A stretch of DNA of 64,000 nucleotides from Inquilinus sp. Marseille-Q2685 (GTDB lineage Bacteria; Pseudomonadota; Alphaproteobacteria; DSM-16000; Inquilinaceae). The notes under the pieces are model-generated. The model ran no database searches. It was given only the letters and a program-made list of their open reading frames with translations, and was not told the origin of the DNA. Location: contig NZ_CAKAKL010000002.1 of assembly GCF_916619195.1 (NCBI RefSeq), forward strand, positions 1,242,001-1,306,000. The letters run 5' to 3'. A program made the position numbers and the translations under genes. Shown here piece after piece: positions 31,352-59,630 of the stretch (positions within the stretch are counted from its first letter, which is position 1; every line of letters begins with the position of its first letter).

Positions 31352-31361
31352 TCCCGGCCCG

Positions 31362-32891: not shown

Positions 32892-32931
32892 TGCCGCCGG
32901 CCGGGTCGAGGAAACGAGTCGAGGATCCGAC

Positions 32932-33732: not shown

Positions 33733-33748
33733 GGCCGCGGAGCAGCGC

Positions 33749-37078: not shown

Positions 37079-37115
37079 TCACCGCCGCACCGACCGACCG
37101 CAACACGAGCCCCGC

Positions 37116-39791: not shown

Positions 39792-39839
39792 CCCGGTCAG
39801 GACTGTGCTCCCCCGCACCTTCGCCCGAGTTTCTCGGCC

Positions 39840-41837: not shown

Positions 41838-41842
41838 ACGGA

Positions 41843-43183: not shown

Positions 43184-43186
43184 CCG

Positions 43187-44596
43187 ATGGTCGATGACGA
43201 TCCGTTCGCCGACCCGCAGGATGCCGACCGCACCGTGATCCGGCCGCGCCCCGGCGGCGCGCGCCCCGCGGCAGTGGTCACCGGCGGCATCCCGGGTGGG
43301 GACGGAGAGAAGACGCTGGTGCCGCGCGCGGCCCCGCCGCCCCGCCCCCGCCTCGCGGCTGGCGTGGCGATGCCGGAACTCGACGGCGCGACGCCCATCG
43401 CGCCGACCGGGGTGAATAAGGTCATCCAGGCGGCGACGCCCCTGTTCGCCCTCGCGGTGCGGCTGAAGAACCGGGCCGTGCATCGCGACGTGCCGCTGCT
43501 GCGCGAGCGTGTCATCGCCGAGATCCGCGCCTTCGAGCGATCCGCACTGGCCACCGGCGCCACGGCCGACGCGATCCGGGCGGCCCGCTACGGGCTCTGC
43601 GCCACCATCGACGATCTCGTCCTGAACACGCCCTGGGGTAGCCAGAGCGTGTGGACCAAGCAGTCGATGGTCTCGACCTTCTATAACGAGACCTGGGGCG
43701 GCGAACGCTTCTTCGACATTCTAGACCATCTGATGAAGGACCCGGAGCGGGCGCTCGACATCCTCGAGCTGTTCTATGTCTGCCTGGCGCTGGGCTTCGA
43801 AGGACGCTACCGGATCGATCCTCGCGGACCGGCCCGGCTGACGGAAACCCGGGAATCCCTCTACATCGCCATCCGGCGGCGGCGCGATCACCGCGAGCGC
43901 GCGCTGTCGCCGCATTGGGTCGGTGTCGCCCCGACCGGGCGCCGGCTGTCACGCCTGGTCCCGCTCTGGGTCATCGGCGCCGCGGCCGGCGCGATTCTGC
44001 TTGGGGCGTTCTTCGCCTACCAATGGCTGCTGGACGAGACGCTGCAGCCGGTGATGGCGGCAGCCGCCCAGGTGCCGCCGGTCGGCCCGGTGGTGATCGA
44101 GCGGCCGGCGCCGGTCGAACCCCCGCCGCCGCCCCAGATCGTCGAGGAGAGCTCGGGCAGCCGCCTCAAGCGCTTTCTCGAGCCGGAGATCCGCGAGGGA
44201 CTGGTCACCGTCATCGAGGATCCGCAGAGCACCCGGGTCCGGATCAACGGCAACGGGCTCTTCGCCTCGGCCAGCGACACGGTGATCGACAACCGCAAGC
44301 CGATCCTGATCCGCATCGGCGACGCGCTGAAGACCGAGCCGGGCCAGGTCGTGGTCGAGGGACACACCGACAATCAGCCGATCCGGAACCTGCGCTTCCC
44401 GTCGAACTGGCAGCTGTCCCTGGCCCGGGCCGAATCGGTGCGGCGGATCCTGGCGGAGCGGGTTCAGGACGATGCCCGCTTCTCGGTCGAGGCGAAGGCG
44501 GACACGGTCCCGCTGGTTCCGAACGACACCGCCGACGGCCGGGCCCAGAACCGGCGGATCGAGGTGGTCCTCCTCAAGCCCACGAAGGGCGGCTGA
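43187..44596 (+). CDS. tssL: TssL (DotU) with C-terminal OmpA-like peptidoglycan-binding domain
   Basis: 469 residues. The N-terminal cytoplasmic DotU part includes ARYGLCATIDDLVLNTPWG and FYNETWGGERFFDIL, a single membrane helix follows (about 258-280), then a Pro-rich linker and an OmpA domain with VVVEGHTDNQPIRN, NWQLSLARAESVRRIL and QNRRIEVVLL. The Asp in GHTDN and Arg in NRRIE are the usual diaminopimelate contacts. It is an extended TssL that holds the peptidoglycan without a separate TagL. Confidence 0.94.
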   Translation: MVDDDPFADPQDADRTVIRPRPGGARPAAVVTGGIPGGDGEKTLVPRAAPPPRPRLAAGVAMPELDGATPIAPTGVNKVIQAATPLFALAVRLKNRAVHRDVPLLRERVIAEIRAFERSALATGATADAIRAARYGLCATIDDLVLNTPWGSQSVWTKQSMVSTFYNETWGGERFFDILDHLMKDPERALDILELFYVCLALGFEGRYRIDPRGPARLTETRESLYIAIRRRRDHRERALSPHWVGVAPTGRRLSRLVPLWVIGAAAGAILLGAFFAYQWLLDETLQPVMAAAAQVPPVGPVVIERPAPVEPPPPPQIVEESSGSRLKRFLEPEIREGLVTVIEDPQSTRVRINGNGLFASASDTVIDNRKPILIRIGDALKTEPGQVVVEGHTDNQPIRNLRFPSNWQLSLARAESVRRILAERVQDDARFSVEAKADTVPLVPNDTADGRAQNRRIEVVLLKPTKGG

Positions 44597-44619
44597 CGCC
44601 GTGCGGACGAAGACAACCG

Positions 44620-47600
44620 ATGCGTAAGATCGTCTCCATCCTGACGGCCCGCTGGTTCGTCTCCCTGGTCGGCGTGCTCCTGCTGTCGACGATCATCTGG
44701 TTCGTCGGCCCGCTGATCGCGGTGGCGGAGGTGCGGCCGCTCGAGGACGCCCTGGTCCGCGTCGTCGTCATCGCCGCGATGCTGGTGCTCTGGGCCCTGG
44801 CAATCGCCTGGTCCGCCGTGCGCAGCCAGCGGGCGAACGCGAAGCTGGTCGACGAGGTCTCGGCGGACAACGCCGCCGCCCCGGAAGACACGGCGGATGA
44901 CGAGATCGAGGCGATCCGCGGCCGGCTGTCCGAGGCGCTCGCGGTCCTGCGCAAGACGCGTCTCGGCCGCAGGGGCCGCCGCCGCTGGCTCTACGAGCTG
45001 CCCTGGTACGTCCTGATCGGCCCGCCCGGCGCCGGCAAAACGACGGCGCTGCTGAACTCGGGCATCGATTTCCCGCTCGCCGACCGCACCGGCCAGGGCC
45101 AGGACGCCATTCGCGGCATCGGCGGCACCCGGAACTGCGACTGGTGGTTCACCAACGAGGCGGTACTGATTGATACCGCCGGCCGCTACACCACCCAGGA
45201 CAGCCATGCCGCGCGCGACGCCGCGGCCTGGAAGGGCTTTCTCGGGCTGCTCAAGCGGAACCGCCCGCGCCAGCCGATCAACGGTGCGATCGTCTGCGTC
45301 AGCATCTCCGACGTGGCGCTGATGCCGGACAGCGAGCGGCTGGCCCATGCCCGCGCCGTCCGCCAGCGACTGCAGGAACTGACGGATGAGCTCGGGGTCC
45401 GCTTCCCGATCTACGTGCTGTTCACCAAGGCCGACCTCCTGGCCGGCTTCTCGGAGTTCTTCGACAATCTCGTCCGGGAGGAGCGCGAGCAGGTCTGGGG
45501 CGTTACCTTCGCTTTCGACGAGGGCAAGGACGAGACCGGCGTCGTCCCGGGCTTCCTGCGCGAGTTCGACCTGCTGGTCGACCGGCTCAACGACCGCGTC
45601 ATCGAGCGGCTGCACCAGGAGCCGGACATCCAGCACCGCAGCCTGGTCTATGGCTTCCCGGCCCAGGTCGCCTCGATGCGCGACGCACTGCACGAGTTCC
45701 TGACCGAGGCGTTCCGCCCCAGCCGGTACGACGCCAGGCCGCTGCTGCGAGGCGTCTATCTCACCAGCGGCACCCAGGAGGGAACGCCCTTCGACCGGCT
45801 GATGGGGGCGATGGCCCGGTCCTTCGGGCTGGATCGCCAGCAAATGGCGGCCGCGCACGGCCGGGGCCGCAGCTATTTCCTGACCGACCTGCTGCGCAAG
45901 GTGGTCTTTGCCGAGGCCGACATCGTCTCGACCAATCCGCGGCTGGAGCGCCGTCTGCGCTGGCTCCGCTGGGGCGCGACGGCGGCCGCCGCAGTGGTCG
46001 TGGTCGCCCTGATCGCGGCCTGGACCGTCAGCTACCTCGGCAACCGGGCGCTGATCGCATCGGCCCAGGAAGGTCTCGACAGCTATGCCGCGAAGCTCGG
46101 CGACACCAGGGGGCCGGTCCGAGACGCCGACCTCGGTCCGGTATTGCCTGCCCTCGACGCCCTGCGCGCCGCGCCGACAGGCTATGAGCGGCAGGACGAC
46201 CCGGCGCCGTGGACGCTGGGCTTCGGCCTGTGGCAGGGCGATACCCTCTCACAGGGCACCGTCCAGGCCTATCGGCACGCCCTGAACACTGTCCTCCTGC
46301 CGCGTCTGGTGTTGCGGCTGGAGGATATCCTGCGCAACGTGCAGCAGCCCTCCGACCTCGCCTATGTCGCGCTGAAGAGTTATCTGATGCTCGGCGGCAA
46401 GGCGCCGGAGGTGGACAGCGCCACCATCCTGCAATGGCTGCGCATCGATCTCGCACAGCGCTATCCCGGAGAGCAGAACGCCCTCCTCCGCCAGTCCGTC
46501 GAGGCCCACACGGCTGCCCTGCTCGAGCGCCCCCTGGCCGGGATCGGGATCGACGGCCGGCTGGTCGAGCGGGTCCGTGGGATCATTGCGGCCACGCCGG
46601 CGGCACAGCGCGCCTATACGCTGCTCTCCGCCAGCCCCGATGCCGCCGCCCTGCCGGTCTGGTCCGTGAGTGACCATGGGGGGCCCGAGACCCCGCGTGT
46701 CCTGGTCCGGGCCTCGAACAAGAGTCTCGGCGAGGGCGTGCCGGGGATCTTCACCTATCGCGGCTTCCACGACGTGGTCTTGACGGAGGTCGAGGACGCG
46801 GCCCGCCTCGTAGCCTCGGACCGCTGGGTGACCGATCCGCAGGCGGCGGTGGGCGTGCCTGACGATGCCGCCGTGGCCCGGATCGCCGGCGACGCGCTGC
46901 AGCTCTACTACAACGACTACATCTCGGCCTGGAACGCCCTGCTGGCCGATATCCGCGTGGTCCCGTTCGAAAGCCGGGAGCACGCGGTGGAGGTGCTGAA
47001 CATCCTGTCCGGCCCCGGCTCACCTCTGGCCGCGATCCTGCGCGGGGCGGCGCAGGAGACCGCGTTGACCAAGGAGGCCCCGGCCGCCGGGGGCCAGGTG
47101 GCGCCCGAACTGAGCGCCGGCCAGAAGCAGGCGGCCAATGTCGCCGCCGCCCAGGCCGAGACCGTGGCGCAGAACCGTTTGGGCATGAGCGGCCGGATCG
47201 CCTCGCTGCTCGCGCAGGACTATGCCCGGACGCGCCTCGGCGGCGGCACCGCCGCGCCGTCGTCGGACTCAGCCCCGCTGCCAGGGGCCTATGTGGAGGA
47301 GCGGTTCCGCGACTTGCATGCCTTCGTCGAAGGCCCGAACGGTGCCGCAGCGCCGCTCGACGACATGATCCGGACGCTGGCCGACATCTATCGCCAGATG
47401 AACCGCAGCGCCATGACACCGGGCGCCGCCGGAGCTGCCGCCAACGCCGAGCTGGGGGCTCTGGCGCAGCAGCTCACCGCCTCGGCGGGGCGCGCGCCGG
47501 AGGCGATGCGCGGCTGGGCCGAGCAGATCGCCCAGGCCACCTCCAACGTCACCATCGGCGGCGCCCGGCAGACGCTGAACGCCGACTGGAACACCACCGG

Positions 47601-48270
47601 CCGGCCGCTGTGCCAGTCGGCGCTGGCCGGACGCTATCCCCTCGCCCGCGGCGCCCGGCAGGACGTGAAGCTGGACGATTTCGCGCGGCTGTTCGCCCCC
47701 GGCGGGCTGATCGACGGCTTCTTCTCCAGCAACCTGGCCCAGTATGCCGACACCTCCCGCACCCCCTGGCGCTGGGCCCGGCTGAACAATGTCGATCTCG
47801 GCATCGCCGACAGCACGCTGGCGCAGTTCGAGAAGGCGGCAAGGATCCGCGATGCGTTCTTCCCGCAGGGCGGGACGCAGCCCAGCATCGGCTTCGAGAT
47901 CGAGCCCGTCGACCTGTCGCCCGAGGCGGCCAGCGTGACGCTGGATATCAATGGCCAGACGGTTTCCTACGACCATGGCCCGGTGCGCCCGGTGTCGATG
48001 CGCTGGCCGGGCACCGGGGCCAGCCAGGTCCGCGTTTCCTTCACCGCGGTCGACGGCTCGCCGAGCGGAGGCATCACCCTGGACGGCCCCTGGGCCCTGT
48101 TCCGGCTGGTCGACCGGTCGCGGATCGCCGGCGCCTCGGCCAGCGACCGCTTCCGCCTGACCGTCAGCGAGGGCAAGGACAGCGCCACTTTCGAGATCCG
48201 CACCGCCAGCGTCCTCAACCCCTTCACGCTGCCGCAGCTGAGGGAGTTCCAATGTCCGCAGGCCTTCTGA
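44620..48270 (+). CDS. tssM: TssM (IcmF), inner-membrane NTPase-like scaffold
   Basis: 1216 residues. Two N-terminal membrane helices (about 10-35 and 45-65), Walker A GPPGAGKTT (about residue 134) and VLIDTAGRY, a third helix (about 455-475), then the IcmF-related periplasmic domain and C-terminal beta domain that binds TssJ. Some TssMs have lost the ATP site; this one keeps it. It overlaps tagF by 19 bases. A short paralogue of its periplasmic half lies at 56827-58131. Confidence 0.95.
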   Translation: MRKIVSILTARWFVSLVGVLLLSTIIWFVGPLIAVAEVRPLEDALVRVVVIAAMLVLWALAIAWSAVRSQRANAKLVDEVSADNAAAPEDTADDEIEAIRGRLSEALAVLRKTRLGRRGRRRWLYELPWYVLIGPPGAGKTTALLNSGIDFPLADRTGQGQDAIRGIGGTRNCDWWFTNEAVLIDTAGRYTTQDSHAARDAAAWKGFLGLLKRNRPRQPINGAIVCVSISDVALMPDSERLAHARAVRQRLQELTDELGVRFPIYVLFTKADLLAGFSEFFDNLVREEREQVWGVTFAFDEGKDETGVVPGFLREFDLLVDRLNDRVIERLHQEPDIQHRSLVYGFPAQVASMRDALHEFLTEAFRPSRYDARPLLRGVYLTSGTQEGTPFDRLMGAMARSFGLDRQQMAAAHGRGRSYFLTDLLRKVVFAEADIVSTNPRLERRLRWLRWGATAAAAVVVVALIAAWTVSYLGNRALIASAQEGLDSYAAKLGDTRGPVRDADLGPVLPALDALRAAPTGYERQDDPAPWTLGFGLWQGDTLSQGTVQAYRHALNTVLLPRLVLRLEDILRNVQQPSDLAYVALKSYLMLGGKAPEVDSATILQWLRIDLAQRYPGEQNALLRQSVEAHTAALLERPLAGIGIDGRLVERVRGIIAATPAAQRAYTLLSASPDAAALPVWSVSDHGGPETPRVLVRASNKSLGEGVPGIFTYRGFHDVVLTEVEDAARLVASDRWVTDPQAAVGVPDDAAVARIAGDALQLYYNDYISAWNALLADIRVVPFESREHAVEVLNILSGPGSPLAAILRGAAQETALTKEAPAAGGQVAPELSAGQKQAANVAAAQAETVAQNRLGMSGRIASLLAQDYARTRLGGGTAAPSSDSAPLPGAYVEERFRDLHAFVEGPNGAAAPLDDMIRTLADIYRQMNRSAMTPGAAGAAANAELGALAQQLTASAGRAPEAMRGWAEQIAQATSNVTIGGARQTLNADWNTTGRPLCQSALAGRYPLARGARQDVKLDDFARLFAPGGLIDGFFSSNLAQYADTSRTPWRWARLNNVDLGIADSTLAQFEKAARIRDAFFPQGGTQPSIGFEIEPVDLSPEAASVTLDINGQTVSYDHGPVRPVSMRWPGTGASQVRVSFTAVDGSPSGGITLDGPWALFRLVDRSRIAGASASDRFRLTVSEGKDSATFEIRTASVLNPFTLPQLREFQCPQAF

Positions 48271-48935
48271 TCCCAGGGGCCGAGGGGCCCGGCATCTTCG
48301 GCAAGCTGCCCTGGCTCGGCGACTTCGTCACCCGCCGGCTGCCCCGCAGCTTCGTCGATCCCTGGGACGACTGGCTGCAGCGCGGCATGGCGGCGACGCG
48401 CGACGCGCTCGGCGAGACGTGGCTGGACAGCTTCCTGACGGCGCCGGTCTGGCGCTTCCTGTTGCCGGCGGGCAGCGCCGGCCCCGCGATGGCGGGGCTT
48501 CTCATGCCCAGCGTGGACCGGGTCGGGCGGTACTTTCCCCTCACCCTGGCCTCGCCGCTCGAGGCAGATCCGGGGCCGGAGGCTCCGCTGCGCGCCGCCG
48601 CATGGTTCGATGTGCTGGAGCGGACCGCGCTCGCCGCGCTCGACGACGCCACGACACCCGAAGCGTGGGAAGCTGCGGTCGAGGCGCTCGGCGCCCCGCC
48701 GCTGACGGAGGAGGAACCGGCCGAGATCGGCGAAGGCTGGCGGGGCGTGCCGCTGTCCTCGGCCGACGGGCTGGGCATCGCTGCGCTGCGCCTGGATACG
48801 GCGGCGGCCCGGGCCCGCTTTTGGACCGGCCCGGCCGCGGAGGGCTGGTACCTCGCCGGCGACGGGCTGCCGCCGCCCCAAGCCTGGCCGCGGGCGTTCA
48901 TGACGGCGCGCTTCGCCATGGAGCCGGCCCGGTGA
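48252..48935 (+). CDS. tagF: TagF, T6SS accessory protein
   Basis: 227 residues. GIFGKLPWLGDFVTRRLPRSFVDPWDDWLQ is the TagF signature at the N terminus (about 13-43), with GLLMPSVDRVGRYFPLTL following. In Pseudomonas TagF represses T6SS firing post-translationally. Here it overlaps tssM at its start and pppA at its end, in agreement with a role alongside the phosphorylation switch. Confidence 0.93.
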   Translation: MSAGLLIPGAEGPGIFGKLPWLGDFVTRRLPRSFVDPWDDWLQRGMAATRDALGETWLDSFLTAPVWRFLLPAGSAGPAMAGLLMPSVDRVGRYFPLTLASPLEADPGPEAPLRAAAWFDVLERTALAALDDATTPEAWEAAVEALGAPPLTEEEPAEIGEGWRGVPLSSADGLGIAALRLDTAAARARFWTGPAAEGWYLAGDGLPPPQAWPRAFMTARFAMEPAR

Positions 48936-49699
48936 GGCGCTTGCAGTTCCGATCCGCCGGCCGCACCGATGCGGGCGCGGTGCGGCACCACAATGAGGAC
49001 GCGTTCCTGTCCAGGCCGGAGATCGGCCTGTGGGCGGTGGCCGACGGCATGGGCGGCCATCGGCGCGGCGACCAGGCCAGCCGGATGATCGTCGAGGCCC
49101 TGGATCGGGTGCAGGCTCCCGAATCCGGAGCCGCCTTCATGAGCGACGTCCACGCCCGGCTCTCCGAGGTCCACGGCGCCCTGCGGCAGGAGGCGGCACA
49201 GGCCGGCGGGACGATCGGGTCGACCGCCATCGTGCTGCTGATCCATGCCGGCCGTTTCGTCTGCCTGTGGGCCGGCGACAGCCGGCTCTACCTGCTGCGC
49301 GACCGGCAGCTATGGCAGATCACGCGAGATCACTCCTATGTCCAGGAGCTCGTCGACAGCGGCGTGCTGTCGCCGGAGGCGGCCCTTCACCATCCCCAGT
49401 CCAACGTGATCACCCGGGCGGTGGGGGCGTCGGACATCCTGGAGCTGGAGATGGAGCGGAGTGTCGTGCTGCCGGGTGACGTCTTCCTGCTGTGCAGCGA
49501 CGGGCTGACCCGGGTCGTCTCCGAGGGCGAGATCGCCAATCTGCTCGACGCCATGCCACCCGATCAGGCGGCGAACGGGCTGGTCGACCTGGCGCTCGGC
49601 CGCGGAGCGCCCGACAACGTCACCGTCGTGATCCTGGCCTGCGAGGACGACGAGGAGCGCACCGTGCCGCCGCGCCGGCCGAACGGAGGGTGGTCGTGA
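48932..49699 (+). CDS. pppA: PppA, PP2C-type Ser/Thr phosphatase
   Basis: 255 residues from GTG 48932 overlapping the tagF stop. All metal-binding PP2C motifs are present: RTDAG (Asp13), NEDAF (Glu22-Asp23), ADGMGGH (Asp38), WAGDSRLYLLR, CSDGLTRVV and GAPDNVTVVIL. It should remove phosphate from Fha and turn the T6SS down. The kinase gene follows with a GTGA overlap, giving a coupled writer-eraser pair. Confidence 0.94.
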   Translation: MRRLQFRSAGRTDAGAVRHHNEDAFLSRPEIGLWAVADGMGGHRRGDQASRMIVEALDRVQAPESGAAFMSDVHARLSEVHGALRQEAAQAGGTIGSTAIVLLIHAGRFVCLWAGDSRLYLLRDRQLWQITRDHSYVQELVDSGVLSPEAALHHPQSNVITRAVGASDILELEMERSVVLPGDVFLLCSDGLTRVVSEGEIANLLDAMPPDQAANGLVDLALGRGAPDNVTVVILACEDDEERTVPPRRPNGGWS

Positions 49700-51243
49700 G
49701 CGCCGGGCCCGAGCGCCGGCCCGAGGACCCGGTCTCGCCCGCCGGGGCGGCCGACCGCGAGGCGCAGCCGCCGCGGACGCCGAGATCGGCCGCCGAGCTG
49801 TCGCCCGGCGAGACCGTGCTGTTCACGTATCGCATCGTCCGGCTGATCAGCCGCGGCGGCATGGGCGAGATCTACGAGGCCGAGCACATCGACCAGCGGA
49901 CGCGGCACGCCATCAAGATCATCCTGCCGGAGCTGATGGGCGACGAGGCGATCGTCACCCTGTTCCTGCGCGAGGCCGACGCGCTGCGCAAGATCCGGCA
50001 CGCCGCGATCGTCGGCTATGACGGGCTGTTCCGCGACGAGTCGAGACGCCTCCACCTGGTCATGGCGTATGTGGACGGCCCCTCCCTGAGCGAGAGGCTG
50101 CGCGACGGGCCGTTGACGCCGGAGGAGGTCGCCGCCCTGCGCGACCGTCTCGCCTCCGGCCTTGCCGAAGCGCATGACCTCGGCATCTGCCACCGCGACC
50201 TGTCCCCCGACAATATCCTGCTCGAGCACGGCCGGCTCGGCGGCGCCAAGCTGATCGATTTCGGCATCGCCAAACTTGTCGACCCCGACGCCCAGACCGT
50301 GGTCGGCAGCGCCTTCGCCGGCAAATTCTCCTGGGCGTCGCCGGAGCAGGTCGGGCTGTTCGGCGCCCAGGTCGATTCCCGGTCCGACATCTACAGCCTG
50401 GGGCTCGTGCTCGCCGCCGCCGCCCGGGGCCGGCCGCTCGAGATGGGCCGGTCGATGATGGCGGTCGTCAACGCCCGCCGCAGCATTCCGCAGCTCGACG
50501 GCGTGCCGCCGAGCCTCGCCCCCCAGATCGCGCGGATGCTCGAGCCCGACCCGCTCGACCGGCCGCAATCGATGCGGGACCTCGTCGGCACGGCCGCTTC
50601 CGCCCCGGGACCGGCCCCCTCGGCCAGGACGCCGCGGCGCCGGATCGCCACGATCGCCGTCGTGCTTTGCTTCGTCCTGGCCGCGGCCGCCGGCGGCCTG
50701 GGGTGGCAATGGCGCACGACCGCAGTCCCGCCCTCAACGCCGCAACCCCAGCAGCCGACGCCGTCGGCGGCCGCGTCCGGGCCCGCCATCGAGACGGCGC
50801 CGTCGGAACCGGCGCGCCCCGAACCGGTACAGCCGAAACCGGTACAGCCGGAACCGGCGCAGCCAGACTCGGAAGCCCCGGCCGCAGCAGGAGCCGCGAT
50901 CCGCGTGGATCCGGCTCCGCCCCTGGACCGGCAGCAATTGCCGCGGCTCCTGGACCTGCCTGCGCGCGATCTGTACCTGGCCGGACGCCGCTTCCTGCTG
51001 GAGAAGCGCGACGCCGACACCGCCCTCGTCCTGTGGGAAGAGGCAGCGCGGCGCGGCAGCGGCGAGGCCGCGCTCGGCATCGCCCGCTTCTACGACCCGG
51101 CCTCCTGGGACCAGGGGCCCCATCCCTTCACCGCGCCGAACCCCGCCAGGGCCCGCGAGTTCTACTCGACCGCCCTGGAACGGGGGATGGAGGAAGCCCG
51201 GCCGCGCCTTCAGGCCCTCGGCAATGCAGGTTCCGAACCATGA
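49696..51243 (+). CDS. ppkA: PpkA-like Ser/Thr kinase with membrane helix and Sel1-like end
   Basis: 515 residues. Kinase domain about 45-300 with the Gly loop ISRGGMGEIYEA, Lys74, HRDLSPDNILL (Asp168, Asn173) and DFG (Asp188). A single membrane helix lies at about 314-336, then a Pro/Glu/Gln repeat (PEPVQPKPVQPEP) and a short Sel1/TPR-like helical domain. In Pseudomonas PpkA the periplasmic end is a vWA domain; here vWA is encoded separately by the next gene. The kinase should phosphorylate Fha after an envelope signal. Confidence 0.9.
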   Translation: MSAGPERRPEDPVSPAGAADREAQPPRTPRSAAELSPGETVLFTYRIVRLISRGGMGEIYEAEHIDQRTRHAIKIILPELMGDEAIVTLFLREADALRKIRHAAIVGYDGLFRDESRRLHLVMAYVDGPSLSERLRDGPLTPEEVAALRDRLASGLAEAHDLGICHRDLSPDNILLEHGRLGGAKLIDFGIAKLVDPDAQTVVGSAFAGKFSWASPEQVGLFGAQVDSRSDIYSLGLVLAAAARGRPLEMGRSMMAVVNARRSIPQLDGVPPSLAPQIARMLEPDPLDRPQSMRDLVGTAASAPGPAPSARTPRRRIATIAVVLCFVLAAAAGGLGWQWRTTAVPPSTPQPQQPTPSAAASGPAIETAPSEPARPEPVQPKPVQPEPAQPDSEAPAAAGAAIRVDPAPPLDRQQLPRLLDLPARDLYLAGRRFLLEKRDADTALVLWEEAARRGSGEAALGIARFYDPASWDQGPHPFTAPNPARAREFYSTALERGMEEARPRLQALGNAGSEP

Positions 51244-53258
51244 TCCGACTGGCTCTCCTGGCCCGCATCCTCGCGGTCGGGCTGTCGACGGCGGTCTTCG
51301 CCGGCGCGGCCATGGCGCAAACTCCGTCTCCCGTGCCGGCGGACACCCGGACGCCGCTGCTGATGCCGGGGACCACGAGCCTGTGGCAGCGTGTGCTCAC
51401 CCGGCCGGGCGCGAAGGCCGCGCCCGAGCCGGGCGGATCCTCGGCCGGCCCCGAGATCCCGGCCCTGTCCGTGCTGTTCGTCTATGGCCGGATGAAGAGC
51501 GGGGACGCCGACTGGATCGAGGTCGGTACGACGCCGGCCGGGCGGACGCTGGGCTGGATCCCAGCCGCGGAGGCGATCGACTGGAAGCAGACGATGGTCG
51601 TCCTCTTCACCAATCCGGTGAACCGCGACCGTGCCCTGTTCTTCAAGGACGCCGATCCGCTGCTCACGCTGATGGAGTCGCCCGATGCCGGCGGCCGGGC
51701 CGCGACGCTGCGCCAGGCCGCCGAAAGCCGCGCCCTGCCTGCGGACAGCCCGGTGACGGCGATCGAGCCGCCGACCTGGATCGATCCGGCCAAGAATTTC
51801 TACCTGCTGCCGATCCTGAACTGGACTGATGGCTACTTCGCCAGCGGCTTCTCGGGGCTCGCTCTCGAGGTCGCGGCGACATCGCTGCAGGAGAAGCCCG
51901 ACCAGCCCGGCCCGGCCAAGCCCGATCCCGAGACCGCGGCCAGGCTGCTGGAAGGCTACCGCGCCGGCGTCGTCTTCGTCGTCGACACCACGATCTCGAT
52001 GCAGCCCTATGTCGAACGCACCCGCGCCACCATCGAGGCGCTGACCGCCAAGCTCGCCGCGTCCGAGGAGGGCGACCGGCTCAGCTTCGGCTTGATCGGC
52101 TACCGCGACGTGATGCCGGACGGCACGCCCGACGGCTATATCACCAAGGTGTTCGCGACCCTGGCGGATGGGCACGACCGGGCGTCGTTCCTCGGGCGCC
52201 TCGACGCCGCTGCGGCCTCGACGGCGAACAATCTCGACTTCCGCGAGGATTCCCTGGCCGGGTTGAAGTCCGCGCTCGACGAGATCGACTGGACCGGCGT
52301 CGCCGGCCGGTTCGTCGTGCTGGTGACCGACGCCAGCCCGCGGCGCGCCAGCGACCCCTATTCCGCGACCCATCTCGATCCGGACCAGCTGCGCCTCCTC
52401 GCCCAGTCCAAGGGCGCGGCGCTGATGGTGATCCATCTGAAGACCCCGGCCGGCAAGGCCGACCATCAGGCCGCCGAAGACGCCTACACGCCGATGACCG
52501 CCTATCCGAACATCGGCAGCCTCTATTTCCCGGTCGAAGGCGGCGACGTCCGGACTTTCGGCATGGTGATCGACCGGATCTCGGAGACCATCCTCCGGCA
52601 GATGGATACCGGCGCCAAGGCTGAGGACGCGAACGGGGCGATCTCCGCCGCGGCATCCTCCCCGAACCAGGCGGCAGAGGCGACCGAGAGCACCTTCGCC
52701 CGCGCCGGCCTCGTCGGCCGCGCCATGCAGCTCGCCTATCTCGGGCGGATGGAGGGAAACCAGCCGCCCCGCCTGTTCTCGGCCTGGGTGTCCGACCGCG
52801 ACATCGCCAACCCGGCGCGCAAGACGCTCGATGTCCGGGTCCTGATCACCCGGAACCAGTTGTCGGATCTGCAGGCGACGCTGAAGGCGATCATCGACGC
52901 CGGCGAGTCGACCCGAATGGCGCCGAACGACTTCTTCCGCCAGCTGCGCAGCGCCGCCGCCACCATGGCCCGGCGGCCGGAGGGCGTGGGCAGCGAGAAC
53001 GCCCGCCGGCTGGCCGATCTCGGTCTGATCGGCGAATACCTCGAGGGCCTGCCCTATCGCAGCCGGATCATGGAGCTGAGCGAGGATGACTGGCTGTCCT
53101 GGAGCTTCGGCCAACAGCGTCAGTTCCTCGACGATCTCGAGGCCAAGGTCTCGCTGTATCGGCAGATCTACGACAACACCGATCAGTGGATCGCCCTCGA
53201 CGGCGACCGCAGTGGCGGCGATGCCGTCTCTCCGATTCCGCTCGACGCCCTGCCATGA
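51240..53258 (+). CDS. Exported vWA-domain protein, likely periplasmic partner of PpkA
   Basis: 672 residues with a signal peptide (cleavage after AMA, about residue 26), an SH3-like region (IEVGTTPAGRTLGWIP) and a von Willebrand A domain starting VVFVVDTTISM (Asp249; DxTxS form of the MIDAS), continuing with GLIGYRD and VLVTDASPRR. It resembles the periplasmic half of Pseudomonas PpkA. ATG overlaps the kinase stop. It is inferred to sense or relay an envelope signal to the kinase. Confidence 0.82.
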   Translation: MIRLALLARILAVGLSTAVFAGAAMAQTPSPVPADTRTPLLMPGTTSLWQRVLTRPGAKAAPEPGGSSAGPEIPALSVLFVYGRMKSGDADWIEVGTTPAGRTLGWIPAAEAIDWKQTMVVLFTNPVNRDRALFFKDADPLLTLMESPDAGGRAATLRQAAESRALPADSPVTAIEPPTWIDPAKNFYLLPILNWTDGYFASGFSGLALEVAATSLQEKPDQPGPAKPDPETAARLLEGYRAGVVFVVDTTISMQPYVERTRATIEALTAKLAASEEGDRLSFGLIGYRDVMPDGTPDGYITKVFATLADGHDRASFLGRLDAAAASTANNLDFREDSLAGLKSALDEIDWTGVAGRFVVLVTDASPRRASDPYSATHLDPDQLRLLAQSKGAALMVIHLKTPAGKADHQAAEDAYTPMTAYPNIGSLYFPVEGGDVRTFGMVIDRISETILRQMDTGAKAEDANGAISAAASSPNQAAEATESTFARAGLVGRAMQLAYLGRMEGNQPPRLFSAWVSDRDIANPARKTLDVRVLITRNQLSDLQATLKAIIDAGESTRMAPNDFFRQLRSAAATMARRPEGVGSENARRLADLGLIGEYLEGLPYRSRIMELSEDDWLSWSFGQQRQFLDDLEAKVSLYRQIYDNTDQWIALDGDRSGGDAVSPIPLDALP

Positions 53259-53989
53259 ACGTCCTGGCGCCTCCGCCGGTCTATGCCCTGCGCGACGTGA
53301 TGCTGCGCCGCGGCGGCCGGGCCGCCGCCTTCGAGCTGCATGTCAGCAACCTCGTCGTCCAGCGTGGCGAGATCTGGTTCCTGACGGGTCAGTCCGGCTC
53401 CGGCAAGTCGACCCTGCTGGACCTGCTGGGAGGCACCCTGGCCCCCGACAGCGCCGCCGCCTTTCATCTGGCCGGGGGGGCAGGCTCGCCGATCGACCTG
53501 GCCCTGCTCTGGCGCCGCCGGCGGCACGACGCCCTCGCGGCGCTGCGGGCCAACAGCATCGGCTATGTACTGCAGACCGGCGGGCTTTTGCCCTATCTCA
53601 CGGTCGGGGAGAACATCGCCCTGACCGCCCGCGTCGCCGGCCGGCACGACCCGGAGCATCTGCGCACCCTGGCGCGCCGGCTCGGCCTCGGGCGGCTGCT
53701 CGATGTCCAGCCGCGCCGCCTGTCGGTCGGCGAGCGGCAGCGCGTGGCCATCGCCCGCGCCCTCGCCCATCGCCCCGACATCCTGCTGGCAGACGAACCC
53801 ACGGCGTCGCTCGACCCGCCCACGGCGGAGCAGGTGTTCGGCCTGATGATCGACACCGTCCAGCAGTTGAAGACCACGGCCATCATCGCCTCGCATGACT
53901 GGGCCAGGGCCGAGGCCGGCGGATACCGGACCTTCGGCCATGCCCTGCGGCGCGAGCAGGATGCCGTGCGCGCCTATTTCTGGACCTGA
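53255..53989 (+). CDS. tagT: TagT-like ABC transporter ATPase
   Basis: 244 residues. Walker A GQSGSGKST (about 48-56), a Q-loop LQTGGLLPYL, signature LSVGERQRVAIARAL and Walker B ILLADEPTASLD, plus a late His switch in ASHDWARA. LolD/MacB-like size. With tagS and tagR it forms the envelope signalling branch known in Pseudomonas as TagQRST, upstream of PpkA. ATG overlaps the vWA stop. Confidence 0.87.
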   Translation: MNVLAPPPVYALRDVMLRRGGRAAAFELHVSNLVVQRGEIWFLTGQSGSGKSTLLDLLGGTLAPDSAAAFHLAGGAGSPIDLALLWRRRRHDALAALRANSIGYVLQTGGLLPYLTVGENIALTARVAGRHDPEHLRTLARRLGLGRLLDVQPRRLSVGERQRVAIARALAHRPDILLADEPTASLDPPTAEQVFGLMIDTVQQLKTTAIIASHDWARAEAGGYRTFGHALRREQDAVRAYFWT

Positions 53990-53997: not shown

Positions 53998-55209
53998 GTG
54001 GGACGGATCGCGCTCGCGGCGCGCCTCGCCACCCGGGATTTCGGCCATGACTGGCGGATCGTGCTGTGCCAGGTGCTCGGCCTCACGGCGGTGCTAGCAC
54101 CGCTGCTGGTGCTGTTCGGGATGCGTTTCGGCCTGATCGACACCCTGGCCCAGCGGTTGATCGAGGATCCGCGCAACCGCGAGATCGTGCCGGCCGGCAG
54201 CGGCCGCTTCGACGCCGCCTTCTTCCGGGACCTGGCCGGACAGGACGGGATCGCCTTCATCGTGCCCGCGACGCGCTCGATCGCCGCCAGCTTCACCCGT
54301 CTGCGCAAGGAAGATGGCGGCCGCCCCCTCTCCGGCGTCGCGCTGCTGCCGTCGGGGCCGGGCGACCCGCTGCTCGCCGGCAACGCGCCGCCGGCCGGGG
54401 ATGCGGTCGTGCTCGGCCGCCGGCTGGCCGACAGCCTCGGCACGGCCGCGGGCGACCGGCTCACCGCCGAGATCACGCGGCAGCGCGACGGCCGCATCGA
54501 GGCGCAGCGCCTGACCCTCACCGTCTCCGGCATCACCGACGCCCCGATCGCGCCGTCCGACGCCCTGCTGGCCCCGCTGGACCTTCTCACCGCCACCGAG
54601 GACTGGCGGGACGGTCTTGGCGTCGGCAGCCGGGGCTGGGCCGGCGCCCCGCCACCGGCCACGGACCGCGTGTTCGCGCGGTTCCGCCTCTACGCCCGCT
54701 CGATCTACGACGTCGCCGCGATCGAGGCGTCGCTCAAGGAACGCGGCGTGGAGGTCCGCACCGCCTCCGCCGACATCGCGCAGATGCAGCTGCTGGACCG
54801 AAATCTCGGCATCGCCTTCTGGCTGATCGCCGGCTGCGGCGCGCTCGGTTATCTGGTCTCCCTCGCCGCCAGCCTGCGCGCCCATGTCGAGCGCAAGCGG
54901 CGGGATCTGGCGATGCTGCGCCTGATCGGGCTGCCGACCCGGTCCCTGGTCGCCTTCCCGGTGGTGCAGGCCGTGCTGATCGCGGTGCTCGGCGTCGCCC
55001 TCGCCGGCATCGTCTTCCAGGGCGCCGCCACCGCACTCAACGCCATCTTTGCAGGCAGCCTGCAGCCCGGCGAGCGCATCTGCCGGCTGCTGCTGGCCCA
55101 TTTCGGCATCGCCACGGCGGCGACGATCCTGGCCGCGCTGCTGTCGGCAAGCTGGGGCGGCCTGCTCGCCGCCCGCATCCAACCCTCCGAAGGACTTCGC
55201 GATGTCTGA
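53998..55209 (+). CDS. tagS: TagS-like FtsX-type permease
   Basis: 403 residues: an N-terminal membrane helix (about 20-40), a large periplasmic domain (about 45-265) and three C-terminal helices (about 268-290, 315-345, 365-390) with the cytoplasmic ERKRRDLAMLRLIGLPTR motif of FtsX/MacB permeases. It starts GTG 53998, 8 bases after tagT. It pairs with TagT. Its end overlaps the tagR start by 8 bases. Confidence 0.85.
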   Translation: MGRIALAARLATRDFGHDWRIVLCQVLGLTAVLAPLLVLFGMRFGLIDTLAQRLIEDPRNREIVPAGSGRFDAAFFRDLAGQDGIAFIVPATRSIAASFTRLRKEDGGRPLSGVALLPSGPGDPLLAGNAPPAGDAVVLGRRLADSLGTAAGDRLTAEITRQRDGRIEAQRLTLTVSGITDAPIAPSDALLAPLDLLTATEDWRDGLGVGSRGWAGAPPPATDRVFARFRLYARSIYDVAAIEASLKERGVEVRTASADIAQMQLLDRNLGIAFWLIAGCGALGYLVSLAASLRAHVERKRRDLAMLRLIGLPTRSLVAFPVVQAVLIAVLGVALAGIVFQGAATALNAIFAGSLQPGERICRLLLAHFGIATAATILAALLSASWGGLLAARIQPSEGLRDV

Positions 55210-56830
55210 CCGCTCCGCCCGGCGCCTGCGAGCCGCGCTTCTGGGACTCGCGGCCTGCCTGGCGGTCGCCGGGCCGGGCCGGGCGGCCGAGCCCATCACC
55301 TGGCCCGAGGAGTCCTACAACCCGTCGCCCGCGCCAGGCGACATCGTCCTGCCCTTGCCCTGCGGGGGCGCCATGACGTTCCGGCGCATCGATCTGCCCT
55401 CCGCCGGCGTCCTCGACGATGTCCGGGTCCAGCTCGGCGACGCCCAGCCGGAGCTGGGCTTCCTCAGCGACCGCCGCTTCGAGGTCATCGCCGGTTCCTT
55501 CTCCGATGCGGCGACTCCGGGCGTCCGCTACTTCCTGATGGGCAAGTACGAGGTCACTCGCGCGCAGTGGGATGCACTGGCCGGCGGGGACTGCCCGAAC
55601 CCGACGATGCGGACGCGGCTGCCGCAGACCGAGATCACCTGGTTCGATGCCGTGGCTTTCGGCCGACGCTATTCCGAATGGCTGATCACCCATGCTCGCG
55701 ACGTGCTGCCGTCGGAATCGGGCACCCCCGGCTTCGTGCGCCTGCCGACCGAGGATGAATGGGAATATGCCGCGCGCGGCGGCATGGCGGTCTCCTCGGA
55801 AGCCTTCCTCGCCTCCCGGTTCCCGATGTCGAGCGGCATTCCGGCCGAGTATCTCTGGTACCAGGGCACCGGCTCCGCGGAAGGCAAGCTGCATCCGGTC
55901 GGCCTGCTCAAGCCCAATCCGCTGGGTCTGCACGACGTGCTCGGCAATGCGTCGGAGATGATGTTCGAGCCGTTCCGGCTGAACCGGCGCGGCCGGCTGC
56001 ACGGCCAAGCCGGCGGCTTCATCGTCCGCGGCGGCGATTTCACCATGCCGCTCGACCAGATCCGCTCCGGCATGCGCGTCGAGATGCCGTACTACGCCGG
56101 CGGCAGCGGCAAGGCCACCGAAACCCGCCAGCTCGGGCTTCGCCTGGCGGTGGCCGCGCCGGTCATCACCTCGCCCGAGCGTCTGGCGGAGATCGAGCGC
56201 GAATGGCAGGCGATGCCGTCGTCGACCGAGAGCCCGGCGAACGCCCGGCGCGAGGACGCGGCCCTGAGCACGCTGGATCGCCTGGCCGACGAGGCCGGAG
56301 ACGAGGCCGTCAAGACCGAACTGCGCGGCGTCGGGCAGTCGATCCGGGAAGCCCTGGTGGACCGCAACGACGCCCGGAACCGGACGGTGCGGTCGCTGGT
56401 CAATGTCGGCGCTCTTCTCGGCAACAAGCTGCGCACCGATCAGCAGCGGCTGCTGGCCGTGAATCAGGCGATCGAGCAAGTGGCACGACCAGCCCTGCGG
56501 CGGCTGCAGGCGCGGCGTCAGGACGCCCCGACCCGCAAGGCGACCGCCGACGCCGAGGCACAGATGCAGCAGATGGAGAAGCAGCGGTCCGGGCTGGAGG
56601 ATACGGTGCGCACCTCGCGCGAGATCTATGTCGACACCGTTCTCAGCACCGCCGGCGACTACTCCGACGAGGTGGTCCAGGCGCAGGTGCCGACGCTGAA
56701 GGCGGAGCTGCACGCCCGCGGCTCCGACTCGCTGCTGCCCTATGTCGACATCTTCGTGCTGCACATGCAGCGGATGCGCGACAACGGCGCCGCCGACCCG
56801 CAGAGCCTCGTCGACGATCTGACGCAATGA
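55202..56830 (+). CDS. tagR: TagR-like SUMF1 (formylglycine-enzyme fold) periplasmic protein
   Basis: 542 residues. Signal peptide (about 1-28), then a SUMF1 fold from about 90 to 325: YFLMGKYEVTRAQWDAL, ITWFDAVAFGRRYSEWL, GFVRLPTEDEWEYAARGG, LGLHDVLGNASEMMFEPF and RGGDF. The rest is a long helical, coiled-coil-like region of about 200 residues, longer than I expect for TagR. In Pseudomonas TagR is a periplasmic activator of PpkA. It is unlikely to be an oxidising formylglycine enzyme, because the C-x-x-x-C pair is not seen. Confidence 0.83.
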   Translation: MSDRSARRLRAALLGLAACLAVAGPGRAAEPITWPEESYNPSPAPGDIVLPLPCGGAMTFRRIDLPSAGVLDDVRVQLGDAQPELGFLSDRRFEVIAGSFSDAATPGVRYFLMGKYEVTRAQWDALAGGDCPNPTMRTRLPQTEITWFDAVAFGRRYSEWLITHARDVLPSESGTPGFVRLPTEDEWEYAARGGMAVSSEAFLASRFPMSSGIPAEYLWYQGTGSAEGKLHPVGLLKPNPLGLHDVLGNASEMMFEPFRLNRRGRLHGQAGGFIVRGGDFTMPLDQIRSGMRVEMPYYAGGSGKATETRQLGLRLAVAAPVITSPERLAEIEREWQAMPSSTESPANARREDAALSTLDRLADEAGDEAVKTELRGVGQSIREALVDRNDARNRTVRSLVNVGALLGNKLRTDQQRLLAVNQAIEQVARPALRRLQARRQDAPTRKATADAEAQMQQMEKQRSGLEDTVRTSREIYVDTVLSTAGDYSDEVVQAQVPTLKAELHARGSDSLLPYVDIFVLHMQRMRDNGAADPQSLVDDLTQ

Positions 56831-58131
56831 CCGGGCGGCGGATATGGATAGCGGTGCTGGGGGGCGGGCTCGCCATCGCGGCCGCTCTCCTCGCCGCCAT
56901 CCACATCGCCAATGCGCGGCTCGCCGGGGAAGCGCGATCGGCGGTCGGGGAGGCCCGCGCCGTCGCGCCCGGCCCTGCCGCGTCGCCGGACGATCCGGCC
57001 GTCGCTCTCGCCGCCCTCGACCGCCTCTCCGCCTCTCCGCTCGCCGGCGGACCGCCAGCCTGGTGGCGACGGGCCGGCCTGAATGCCGGGGACCTCGACG
57101 ATCTCCAGGCCGAGACGCAGCGGCTGGACCGCGACCTGCTGCGCGACGGGCTGCTGGGCCGCCTGGCAGGCCGCATCCTGGAGCGGATCGAGCGTCCGGA
57201 CATCGCGCCCGAGCTCGCCTTCGAGGGGCTGAAGGCGGTCCTTGCCCTCGGCGACGCGGACGCTCCGCGGCAGGACGACCTGATCCGCCTCTGGGCCACG
57301 ATCGACTGGTCGATGACCGAGCCCTCCCCCGACCGGCGCGAAAGGCTGGCGCGCCAGCTGGACCGGGCCCTGGCTGCGGAACCGCGCCTCCTGCCTGCGG
57401 TGGATGCCGCGGCGATCGACCGGGTCAGGGCCCGCCTCCGGCAGACGCCGCTCGCGGTCCGGGCCTATGCCGCGATCCGGAGCTCCGAGGCGGCCCAGGC
57501 TCTGCCGCCGTTCCGCGCAGATCTCGTCCTCGGTGCCGACGGCTGGCCGCTGACCCGCCGCTCCGGAGCCTCCCTCGCCACGCCGATCCCCGGCCTGCTC
57601 ACGGCGGACGGGTTCCACCGGGTGATGGCGCCGGCCCTGGCCGATCTGTCCGGCGCGCTGCAGGCCGATGCCTGGGTGCTGGGCGATAGCGGACGGCCCG
57701 AGACGGTCGGGCGCACGCTCGCCGCAACCGTGCTCGGCCTTTACCTCGACGACACGGCCAGGGCCTGGGACAGCCTTCTGGACGATCTCGAGGTCACGCT
57801 GCCCGGGGCCGACCCCGGCAGCGCAGGCCGGGTCATCGACGCTCTGACCCGGTCGCCCGGACCGCTCCTGCGCCTCGCCCTCGCCGCACGCCAAGCCACG
57901 CTGTTCGACCGGGCGAGCGGTGCGGACGCAGTGCGGCTTTCGGCCCTGGCCGAGGCCGTCGGCGGCACCAGGCCGTGGACGGCGATCGATCGTCGCTACG
58001 CCTGGCTTCTCGGGGGTGACGGCCGGGATCTGCCTGGCTTCGGGGTGCTGATCGACGCGGCGCAGCCGCTGATCGATTCGGCCGGCGGCCTGCCGGGCGA
58101 CGCGCCGCCATCGGCCTCGCCGCTCGACTGA
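56827..58131 (+). CDS. Short TssM-like (IcmF-related domain) protein without NTPase domain
   Basis: 434 residues with one N-terminal membrane helix (about 5-28). It parallels the periplasmic part of TssM of this locus in order: a VRARLRQTPLAVRAYAAI segment like TssM VRGIIAATPAAQRAYTLL, then IPGLLTADGFHRVM like TssM VPGIFTYRGFHDVV, then LYLDDTARAWDSLLDDL like LYYNDYISAWNALLADI. There is no Walker motif and no C-terminal beta domain. It could join the membrane complex or compete with TssM (inference). ATG overlaps the tagR stop. Confidence 0.72.
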   Translation: MTGRRIWIAVLGGGLAIAAALLAAIHIANARLAGEARSAVGEARAVAPGPAASPDDPAVALAALDRLSASPLAGGPPAWWRRAGLNAGDLDDLQAETQRLDRDLLRDGLLGRLAGRILERIERPDIAPELAFEGLKAVLALGDADAPRQDDLIRLWATIDWSMTEPSPDRRERLARQLDRALAAEPRLLPAVDAAAIDRVRARLRQTPLAVRAYAAIRSSEAAQALPPFRADLVLGADGWPLTRRSGASLATPIPGLLTADGFHRVMAPALADLSGALQADAWVLGDSGRPETVGRTLAATVLGLYLDDTARAWDSLLDDLEVTLPGADPGSAGRVIDALTRSPGPLLRLALAARQATLFDRASGADAVRLSALAEAVGGTRPWTAIDRRYAWLLGGDGRDLPGFGVLIDAAQPLIDSAGGLPGDAPPSASPLD

Positions 58132-59630
58132 TGGCGGAGGTGGCCCCCCGGCCGGGCGCGGATCCACGCGCCGCCTGCGATGCCGGCATCGCCGGGGCGC
58201 CGCACAGGCTGTGCCGGCCTGAGATCGGGCTCTGGGCGCTGGCCGTGCCGGGAAGCGAGACGGCGGAGAGTCGCGACGAGGCAGCCGCCGTCCTGGGGGA
58301 TCTTGCGGCGCTCCCGGACGGGCTGAGCCGGGCGGAGGTGGCTCGGGCCGTTCGCCGGCGGATCGAGCGGGAAGCGCTCCGGTCCGGTCACCGGCAGCAA
58401 TCCCGCCGGCGCCCCGAAGGCGTGTCCATCCTGGCCGCGATCGTCAGCCCGCCGCATACGATGTGCGTCCGGACTGGCGTGGGCCGACTCTATCGCCTCG
58501 GGCCGGACGGCCTCACCGCCATCGGCTTCGAGGGGCGGTCCCGGTCCGCGGACAACGCGCTCCAGCCGGAGGTGACGCGGATTCACCTGGAAGCCGGAGA
58601 CCGGCTGGTCCTGGCCTCCTGTGATCTGTCGGCCGACATGATGCGGCCGGTCGATGCGGCCCTCCTCCGCGAGCCGCCCGACACCGCCGCCCGGCGATTG
58701 GCCGCGCACGCCGCCGAGGCGGGGGAGCGTCTACCGGCTGTGCTCGTGCTGGCCGCGCGGACCGTCGCGAAGGCCGCCTCGTCGCAGCCGGTGTCGCCGT
58801 CGCGCGATCGATCGCCGGCAGGCGGGCGCGCCCGCCCGGCCGGACGGGCCCCGCTGCCGCTCCTCCTGGGGGTCGGGGCCTTGGCGGTGCTCACGGCTCT
58901 GGCGGTTGGCCTGGCGCTGTCGCACCGGCCCGGGCCACCGCCGGCAGAGCCGCCCGCTCCGGTTCCCACGGCCGACCCGGACCTTGCGGCGCTCGGCCTG
59001 TCATCGGCCGATATCGGGGCCGCCGATCGGCGTCTGGCGCAGACCGTGCGCCTGGCCGTGGCAGTCAACGCGATCGACCGTGCCCTGGACCGGCTCGACC
59101 TGCCGCCCGCAGCCGGCTCCGCCCCGATCGCCGATCCGTTCTCGCCCGCCGCGCTCGACGCCCATGCTCGCCTCCTGGCAGCGCGCCTGCCGGGGCTGCC
59201 CCTGGCGCCGCCCCTGCGCATCGAGTATCAGAAATCGAGCCCTTTCGGCGTGCGCGTCCATCCGATCACCGGCCTGACGATGATGCACACCGGCGTCGAT
59301 CTCGTCGCCCCCGCGGGAACGCCGATCTTCGCCACCGGCGCCGGCCGTGTCCTGCGGTCGGGCCCCGCCGGCGGCTACGGGAACATGGTGGAGGTCCAGC
59401 ATGCCGACGGGCTGGTCACCCGCTATGCGCATATGCAGTCCCTCGCGGTCGGCGTGGGCGATCCGGTCGCGGTGGGGACCGTCGTCGGCACCCTCGGCTC
59501 GACGGGCGAATCGACCGGCCCCCATCTTCACTATGAGGTCCGGCGCGGCGATATCCCGGTCGACCCGATGCCCTTCCTCGAGGCCGGCCAGGCCCTGAAG
59601 GCGGCCCTGCTGGTGGCGTTCCGGAAGTGA
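58131..59630 (+). CDS. Degenerate PP2C domain fused through a membrane helix to an M23 peptidase
   Basis: 499 residues. Residues about 10-210 follow the layout of PppA (RPEIGLWALA, a GVGRLYRL strand where PppA has GDSRLYLL, LEAGDRLVLASCDLS where PppA has GDVFLLCSDGLT), but every metal-binding residue is missing. A membrane helix lies at 241-264. The periplasmic end is an M23/LytM peptidase: FGVRVHP, HTGVD (His386, Asp390), YAHM (His434) and HLHYE (His465, His467), with all zinc and catalytic positions intact. It is the last gene of the locus and could cut peptidoglycan to let the secretion complex through, controlled by the cytoplasmic pseudophosphatase (inference). Confidence 0.85.
   Translation: MAEVAPRPGADPRAACDAGIAGAPHRLCRPEIGLWALAVPGSETAESRDEAAAVLGDLAALPDGLSRAEVARAVRRRIEREALRSGHRQQSRRRPEGVSILAAIVSPPHTMCVRTGVGRLYRLGPDGLTAIGFEGRSRSADNALQPEVTRIHLEAGDRLVLASCDLSADMMRPVDAALLREPPDTAARRLAAHAAEAGERLPAVLVLAARTVAKAASSQPVSPSRDRSPAGGRARPAGRAPLPLLLGVGALAVLTALAVGLALSHRPGPPPAEPPAPVPTADPDLAALGLSSADIGAADRRLAQTVRLAVAVNAIDRALDRLDLPPAAGSAPIADPFSPAALDAHARLLAARLPGLPLAPPLRIEYQKSSPFGVRVHPITGLTMMHTGVDLVAPAGTPIFATGAGRVLRSGPAGGYGNMVEVQHADGLVTRYAHMQSLAVGVGDPVAVGTVVGTLGSTGESTGPHLHYEVRRGDIPVDPMPFLEAGQALKAALLVAFRK

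Follow-up and report, generated by a model that had tools for sequence, protein, structure and literature searches.

A pseudo-PP2C–M23 peptidase fusion with a truncated TssM partner at type VI secretion loci of Inquilinus: a candidate dedicated cell-wall cutter

We describe a gene of the alphaproteobacterium Inquilinus sp. Marseille-Q2685 that joins a degenerate PP2C phosphatase domain, a membrane helix and an M23 peptidase, and that closes a type VI secretion system (T6SS) locus. The window analysed here is the whole 64,000-nucleotide stretch at positions 1,242,001 to 1,306,000 of contig NZ_CAKAKL010000002.1 (assembly GCF_916619195.1), in which the fusion gene occupies 58131..59630 of the plus strand and codes for 499 amino acids. 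We propose, with a probability of roughly one half, that its product is a T6SS-dedicated, inner-membrane-anchored peptidoglycan endopeptidase that would open the producer's own wall at the site of membrane-complex assembly, docked there by its pseudo-PppA domain on the inside and by a short TssM-like protein on the outside. Sequence comparison shows the domain make-up, the loss of metal ligands, the intact M23 site, the coupling of the two genes, the linkage to T6SS genes and the occurrence of copies beside two T6SSs.

The first-pass annotation of this DNA had proposed a pseudophosphatase, a membrane helix and an M23 peptidase in one polypeptide, and each part is borne out by an open reading frame (ORF) that runs exactly from 58131 to 59630. 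In the translation, a degenerate PppA-type PP2C domain recognized by profiles and alignment (residues ~24-210; 58200..58760) is followed by a lone transmembrane helix (~241-263; 58851..58919), a periplasmic linker of ~100 residues whose conservation is seen in invariant alignment columns (about 264-365; 58920..59225) and an M23 peptidase domain identified by Pfam, PDB matches and alignment (385-479; 59283..59567), all on the plus strand. The hydropathy profile has a single peak above 1.6, at the helix, and an Arg-rich stretch precedes it, so that under the positive-inside rule the N-terminal half is predicted to be cytoplasmic and the M23 domain periplasmic. The latter (PF01551, E 1.1e-32) is the sole Pfam domain of the fusion above cut-off; a DUF3239 match (E 0.06) fell under it and was disregarded. 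As the first-pass annotation had also claimed, the M23 site is complete: H386, D390, H434, H465 and H467 are invariant in the alignment of all seven full-length copies and make up the HxxxD, HxH and middle-His pattern that we take to be the zinc-binding and catalytic motif of M23. The nearest solved structures are the M23 peptidases 3slu and 6muk, and the NCBIfam matches are to M23-type proteins, with ShyC and MepM leading and every one far under its cut-off. By sequence the fusion belongs to peptidase family M23, and peptidoglycan would be its expected substrate.

The N-terminal half is, by sequence profile, homologous to the PP2C/PPM phosphatases across the span of the domain. Profiles were needed because Pfam, given the fusion alone, reported no PP2C and BLASTP of the window fusion against the window PppA gave only E 0.002 over just 12 residues. 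Other pairs did better, namely the G002 locus searched with the window PppA by tblastn (27% over 225 residues, E 5.9e-7) and the window fusion against a Rhodovarius PppA (35% over 102 columns, E 2.6e-6). Such pairwise matches are far above chance, but the case for full-length homology depends on the profiles. The first hint of a PP2C origin came from the Rhodovarius protein (L013), a PppA-type PP2C whose gene adjoins T6SS genes. A seven-row profile built from residues 1-363 of seven copies, scanned against genomes at E<=1e-5 (family, class) or E<=1e-6 (phylum), matched 13 distinct non-fusion proteins, of which 10 are PP2C by Pfam, one is the window pppA product (likewise PP2C by Pfam) and two (L096, L097) carry PP2C motifs by eye. 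The nine matched proteins inspected align in two collinear pieces, profile positions ~22-126 and 134-210, the second of which scores below 10 bits in three cases; L084 aligns in a single piece only. Comparison of the N-terminal half with eight PP2C proteins by hhalign gave a probability of 99.1% (E 6.9e-19, 179 columns), a figure that is favoured because six of the eight PP2C rows had come from the fusion profile itself. Free of that bias, a search of all PDB chains returned six matches at E<=1 (best 6.4e-5), all six named Ser/Thr phosphatases, which we take to be PP2C-type; five of them are apparently forms of one protein.

Loss of the metal ligands, likewise claimed in the first-pass annotation, is clear from an alignment of seven fusions with 14 PP2Cs. 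The Asp residues of the NED, DGxGG, SDG and DN columns are each present in 0/7 fusions and 14/14 PP2Cs, and that of the GDS column is left in one fusion (L022) as against all 14 PP2Cs; the window fusion has an Asp one position off the SDG column. About 30 residues matching the PP2C flap are absent from the fusions in the same alignment. The domain thus lacks the ligand set of an active phosphatase and would be a dead PP2C. An AlphaFold model of the N-terminal half built with the orthologue L007 alone (two rows) had a mean predicted local distance difference test score (pLDDT) of 48 and a predicted template modelling score (pTM) of 0.50, while five rows, three PP2Cs among them, raised these to 72 and 0.72 in a model that is not independent of the PP2C claim. 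Strands and helices follow one another in nearly the same order in both models, and this succession fits what we take to be the typical PP2C order, although the pLDDT of the independent one is low. Against L007 (NZ_VCCH02000006.1, the first of two copies in genome G005), the ratio of nonsynonymous to synonymous substitution rates (dN/dS) is 0.54 for the pseudo-PP2C, with 69.8 changes per 409.8 nonsynonymous sites and 47.2 per 166.2 synonymous sites (Fisher p 0.003), 0.15 for PppA and 0.13 for the M23 half of the fusion. The pseudo-PP2C is therefore under mild purifying selection, constrained but loosely. In a tree it forms one clade with support 100/100; an attempt to place this single long-stemmed clade within the PP2C tree gave no placement.

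Beyond what the first-pass annotation had noticed, the fusion has a constant partner. A short TssM-like protein of 434 amino acids, with one N-terminal transmembrane helix and an IcmF-related region (56827..58131, plus strand; Pfam/NCBIfam, hydropathy and tree), is encoded immediately upstream of the fusion in all seven full-length copies, and in each its stop codon overlaps a codon at which the fusion gene could start, a TTG in three of them. The protein aligns only to positions 433-806 of the 1168 of TIGR03348 (151 bits against a cut-off of 388) and to PF06761; it retains the first periplasmic part of TssM and is not a full TssM, lacking the IcmF N-terminal, helical and C2-like domains. Its profile, scanned against 385 genomes of the class at E<=1e-25, matched 12 places outside the genus, all in frames of at least 1158 amino acids, that is, full TssMs. 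In a 27-row tree the short TssMs form one clade (eight rows, one gene being represented twice) with support 100/100 and a stem of 1.63.

Eight copies of the fusion were found. Full-length copies are present in five of the six genus genomes: two in the window genome, G000 (that of the window and G000:C3:381277-382581), two in G005, and one each in G001, G002 and G003; the sixth, G004, has a partial copy cut by a contig end. The fusion was found in none of the 11 other genomes of the family, and no further full-length match appeared in 385 genomes of the class, 398 of the phylum and three of the family of genome G048, the class and phylum scans being partly overlapping samples in which few candidates per genome were scored. 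A contig scan for exact short peptides returned eight loci, of which only L007 matched at full length. A plasmid collection searched with the whole fusion gave 3547 matching records, none spanning 80% of the protein; the best 30 of the 3547 all align with the M23 end, and residues 1-363 had no match there at E 0.01. Among the genomes sampled, the fusion was found in this genus only. Five of the eight copies adjoin core T6SS genes in the stretch read, and the G002 copy, at a contig edge, lies with the FtsX, ABC and vWA genes and the end of ppkA; for those of G003 and G004 the contigs, 6.5 and 3.8 kb long, are too short for linkage to be judged. No copy was shown to lie elsewhere, in keeping with the T6SS linkage proposed in the first-pass annotation, which had suggested a search for the same fusion in other T6SS loci. 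The record of L007 is titled Mycobacterium sp. KBS0706, a name that looks wrong, for its T6SS genes share 79-95% identity with those of the Gram-negative window genome.

The second copies in G000 and G005 adjoin another T6SS, also a point that the first-pass annotation did not contain. Identity between the two G000 loci is 57-75% for the accessory proteins (g27471, a small protein described below, 57; PpkA 59; short TssM 59; vWA-like protein 70; ABC ATPase 72; FtsX-like permease 74; FGE protein 75), as compared with 29-58% for the other T6SS proteins (TssA 29, Fha 32, TssG 34, TssF 36, TssM 40, TssB 42, TagF 48, TssL 50, TssC 53, ClpV 53, TssK 54, PppA 58), two ranges that touch. Since, in addition, the two full TssMs of G000 group apart in the 27-row tree, the accessory set is common to two otherwise unlike T6SSs. 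It recurs with two distantly related systems, yet is not a rigid unit.

In the mechanism that we favour, the M23 domain would cut peptidoglycan, possibly as a D,D-endopeptidase to judge by its likeness to M23 enzymes of the MepM/ShyA class. Inside the cell, the catalytically dead PppA-type domain, with its fold core kept, may dock to the signalling and assembly platform, PpkA, Fha and TssL being candidate partners, and in the periplasm the co-translated truncated TssM would hold the hydrolase in, or beside, the TssM ring. Peptidoglycan cleavage, partner binding, the role in assembly and the direction of control are thus what we infer, and the reading as a dedicated wall cutter takes its ground from the literature on TagX, MltE and PpkA. 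Genes for wall cutters are reported to be uncommon in T6SS clusters, TagX being one of them, and MltE is reported to be stimulated by the C-terminal domain of TssM (PMC10433429). TagX is described as an L,D-endopeptidase required for Hcp export (PMC5061870) that binds TssM, with 0.4 membrane-complex foci per cell in its absence as against 1.0 in its presence (PMC10564176). PpkA is reported to bind TssJ, TssM and TssL and to gather T6SS parts (PMC12607579). It may be that the inner domain does more than dock, sensing or binding the kinase/Fha platform and gating the peptidase across the membrane while the truncated TssM clips M23 to the membrane complex, so that wall opening would be licensed by the phosphorylation pathway; this transmembrane relay we put forward tentatively and regard, on balance, as doubtful. 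The first-pass annotation had suggested that the domain may read phospho-Fha or the kinase, a role that it would have to play without a flap, with hardly any ligand left and at a dN/dS of 0.54 against the 0.15 of PppA.

Several observations weigh against the proposal of a dedicated, docked wall cutter. Between the two G000 loci the fusion itself is 48% identical, a value that falls among those of the core proteins, although its M23 part reaches 75%. Gene order differs at the second locus, where ppkA comes after the short TssM and fusion genes, and the stretches read from G001 and G002 (L042, L043) have no FGE gene, the short TssM following directly after FtsX. The dN/dS of the pseudo-PP2C is ~3.6 times that of PppA, and ~20 more residues have been lost from it in both copies at the second T6SS, so that it may be a relic. 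Stimulation of MltE is reported for the C-terminal domain of TssM, which the short TssM lacks, and the MltE precedent is therefore not directly transferable. The 12 places outside the genus that the short TssM profile had matched, T6SS loci of ten other alphaproteobacterial genomes, served as controls: a search for M23 genes at E 1e-5 in the 24 to 40 kb read at these loci (those of G008, G245 and G287 end at contig ends) gave none. Among these loci, those of G273 and G048 carry the same accessory genes in the order FGE-FtsX-ABC-vWA-ppkA-pppA, and because such loci exist without M23 the fusion is an addition to this type of T6SS and not a requirement of it; in G273 the FGE gene is followed by a gene for a membrane protein of 170 residues and by a long ORF taken for VgrG. 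Finally, the vWA-ABC-FtsX set occurs without any T6SS core gene in all 12 further stretches read, 10 of which also have FGE; these stretches (L165-L176) were drawn from 19 places, with G000 and the copies at the T6SS loci of G273 and G048 left out of that number.

The relic argument leads to the nearest rival, in which the protein is still a wall cutter dedicated to the T6SS, with a pseudo-PP2C that is no more than an evolutionary remnant or a passive anchor and an M23 half that is controlled from the periplasm only, by the short TssM and the FtsX-like permease. The N-terminal domain is indeed evolving fast and eroding beside a better conserved M23 half, and the same operon encodes an FtsE/X-like ABC pair, reminiscent of Escherichia coli FtsEX, which is described as triggering wall hydrolysis through EnvC in division. 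Yet the domain is in frame in all seven full-length copies, has invariant positions and a dN/dS significantly below 1, and a plain transmembrane tail would suffice as an anchor; we consider this reading possible but would not expect it to hold. We think it improbable that the M23-short TssM pair serves a TagQRST-like envelope-sensing pathway, trimming or repairing the wall after damage and signalling to PpkA instead of making way for the membrane complex. The pair does end the ppkA-vWA-ABC-FtsX-FGE operon and stands with these genes again at the second locus, and TagQRST is reported to react to membrane perturbation (PMC10433429), but the short TssM derives from the scaffold of the membrane complex, and neither M23 nor a short TssM was found at E 1e-5 in any of the 12 vWA-ABC-FtsX loci without T6SS genes.

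A general growth endopeptidase encoded beside the T6SS by chance would account for the resemblance of the M23 half to transmembrane-coiled coil-M23 proteins of family members, and a MepM-like M23 protein of G002, G004 and G005 is not among the M23 matches of the window genome. This explanation, however, has to face the six of eight copies that lie with a T6SS or the PpkA module, the two copies beside different T6SSs in each of G000 and G005, and the T6SS-type character of both the short TssM and the N-terminal domain, and we hold it to be quite improbable. Least likely of all, and to our minds very unlikely, is a T6SS effector that cuts the wall of prey and has its immunity protein encoded next to it. 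M23 effectors beside vgrG have been reported (PMC5061870, PMC10763514), and downstream of the fusion, at 59737-60201, is a gene for a small DUF3060 protein that probably carries an export signal. A DUF3060 match also lies beside L007, but there was none in the other searched copy stretches, and the fusion has an internal transmembrane helix and a cytoplasmic phosphatase-type domain, with M23 as its sole Pfam domain. We set the effector reading aside because of the internal helix and the lack of a conserved downstream gene.

The role that we propose for the fusion has precedents, whereas its domain make-up and truncated TssM partner appear undescribed. TagX resembles it in being encoded in T6SS clusters and membrane-anchored with a periplasmic hydrolase domain, but is described as a LAS-family relative of a phage endolysin (PMC5061870; a lytic transglycosylase according to PMC10564176) and has neither pseudophosphatase nor short TssM; Pfam gives M23 only, and not a LAS-type domain, for the fusion. 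MltE of enteroaggregative E. coli is likewise a wall cutter reported to be brought to the T6SS membrane complex via TssM (PMC10433429), but it is a housekeeping lytic transglycosylase, whereas the fusion would be a dedicated enzyme. PppA shares profile homology with the N-terminal domain over most of its length, from which the fusion differs by its lost ligands, deleted flap and attached transmembrane and M23 parts. TAB1 and PHLPP2 are PPM/PP2C-type proteins held to be inactive, like the N-terminal domain, and TAB1 is a regulatory subunit of a kinase (PMC12002173, PMC3245275); unlike the fusion they are animal proteins with some metal-site residues kept and no wall-hydrolase part, and TAB1 may serve as a model for the inner domain, not as evidence for it. 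The FtsEX-EnvC system, as described, is like this locus in combining an FtsE/X-like ABC pair with a LytM/M23-type protein and in its inside-out control of wall hydrolysis, but EnvC is an activator and serves division instead of secretion. We know of no EnvC that is a membrane-spanning PP2C fusion. The alphaproteobacterial transmembrane-coiled coil-M23 proteins share with the fusion the helix, a similar pre-M23 segment and the M23 domain; those read have a shorter part before the helix, a long coiled coil and no pseudo-PP2C, and they are possible donors of its C-terminal half. Titles and abstract openings among the matches listed, a coverage that leaves out most subscription journals, held no description of this architecture, and within the same coverage no paper pairing 'type VI secretion' with 'pseudophosphatase' was found.

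Upstream of the pair, the window holds a T6SS core cluster at 26644..48935 (Pfam/NCBIfam) that runs from hcp, on the minus strand at 26644, through tssA, tssB, two tssC, impE/tagJ, tssE, tssF, tssG, clpV, fha (39840..41174, plus; Pfam), tssJ, tssK, tssL and tssM to tagF. It is followed on the plus strand by pppA, a PP2C phosphatase gene with all ligands present in Pfam match and alignment (48929..49699, start approximate); ppkA, a Ser/Thr kinase gene by Pfam with a probable GTG start (49696..51243); a gene for an exported protein that is vWA-like by eye, the longer ORF having no Pfam match at 0.01 (51240..53258); an FtsE/LolD-like ABC ATPase gene, taken as TagT-like (53255..53989; Pfam/NCBIfam); an FtsX-like permease gene, TagS-like by domain and place (53998..55209; Pfam/NCBIfam); and a gene for an FGE-sulfatase-domain protein (Pfam), TagR-like by domain and place (55202..56830), the FGE domain being presumably that of TagR. 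The short TssM and fusion genes come last. If the probable starts are used, each gene from ppkA onwards overlaps the next as far as the fusion (49696-59630), the one exception being a gap of 8 bases ahead of the FtsX gene, and adjacent genes for FGE, FtsX-like, ABC and PpkA proteins give the window a TagQRST-like module. We had considered that these neighbours might belong to T6SSs only, an idea rejected on the 12 stretches that lack T6SS genes; the stand-alone vWA-ABC-FtsX(-FGE) set may be an envelope-sensing system adopted by T6SSs. The two adjacent, diverged tssC (sheath) genes at 29852-32891 have counterparts elsewhere: of the 12 other T6SS loci, 8 have separate matches to each kind. The small protein g27471 (27471-27980) has 169 amino acids, is probably exported, matches neither Pfam at 0.01 nor NCBIfam at 0.001 and is conserved with this type of T6SS: relatives occur at L039:15902-16300 and in the T6SS loci of G273 and G048, and its gene adjoins ppkA in the second T6SS locus and lies at the opposite end of the cluster in the window. 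Further upstream, ORFs of similar size at 7504-9162, 12902-14560 and 19044-20567 (552, 552 and 507 amino acids) are possibly paralogues; for two of the three, the antisense ORFs also agree in length.

In summary, the interest of the fusion lies in the rarity of wall-cutter genes at T6SS loci. A candidate dedicated enzyme of this kind, which has a dead signalling domain on one side of the membrane and a truncated scaffold protein as its putative partner on the other, makes it testable how the cutting of the wall is confined to the site of assembly, and whether or not it is controlled by the threonine-phosphorylation pathway.

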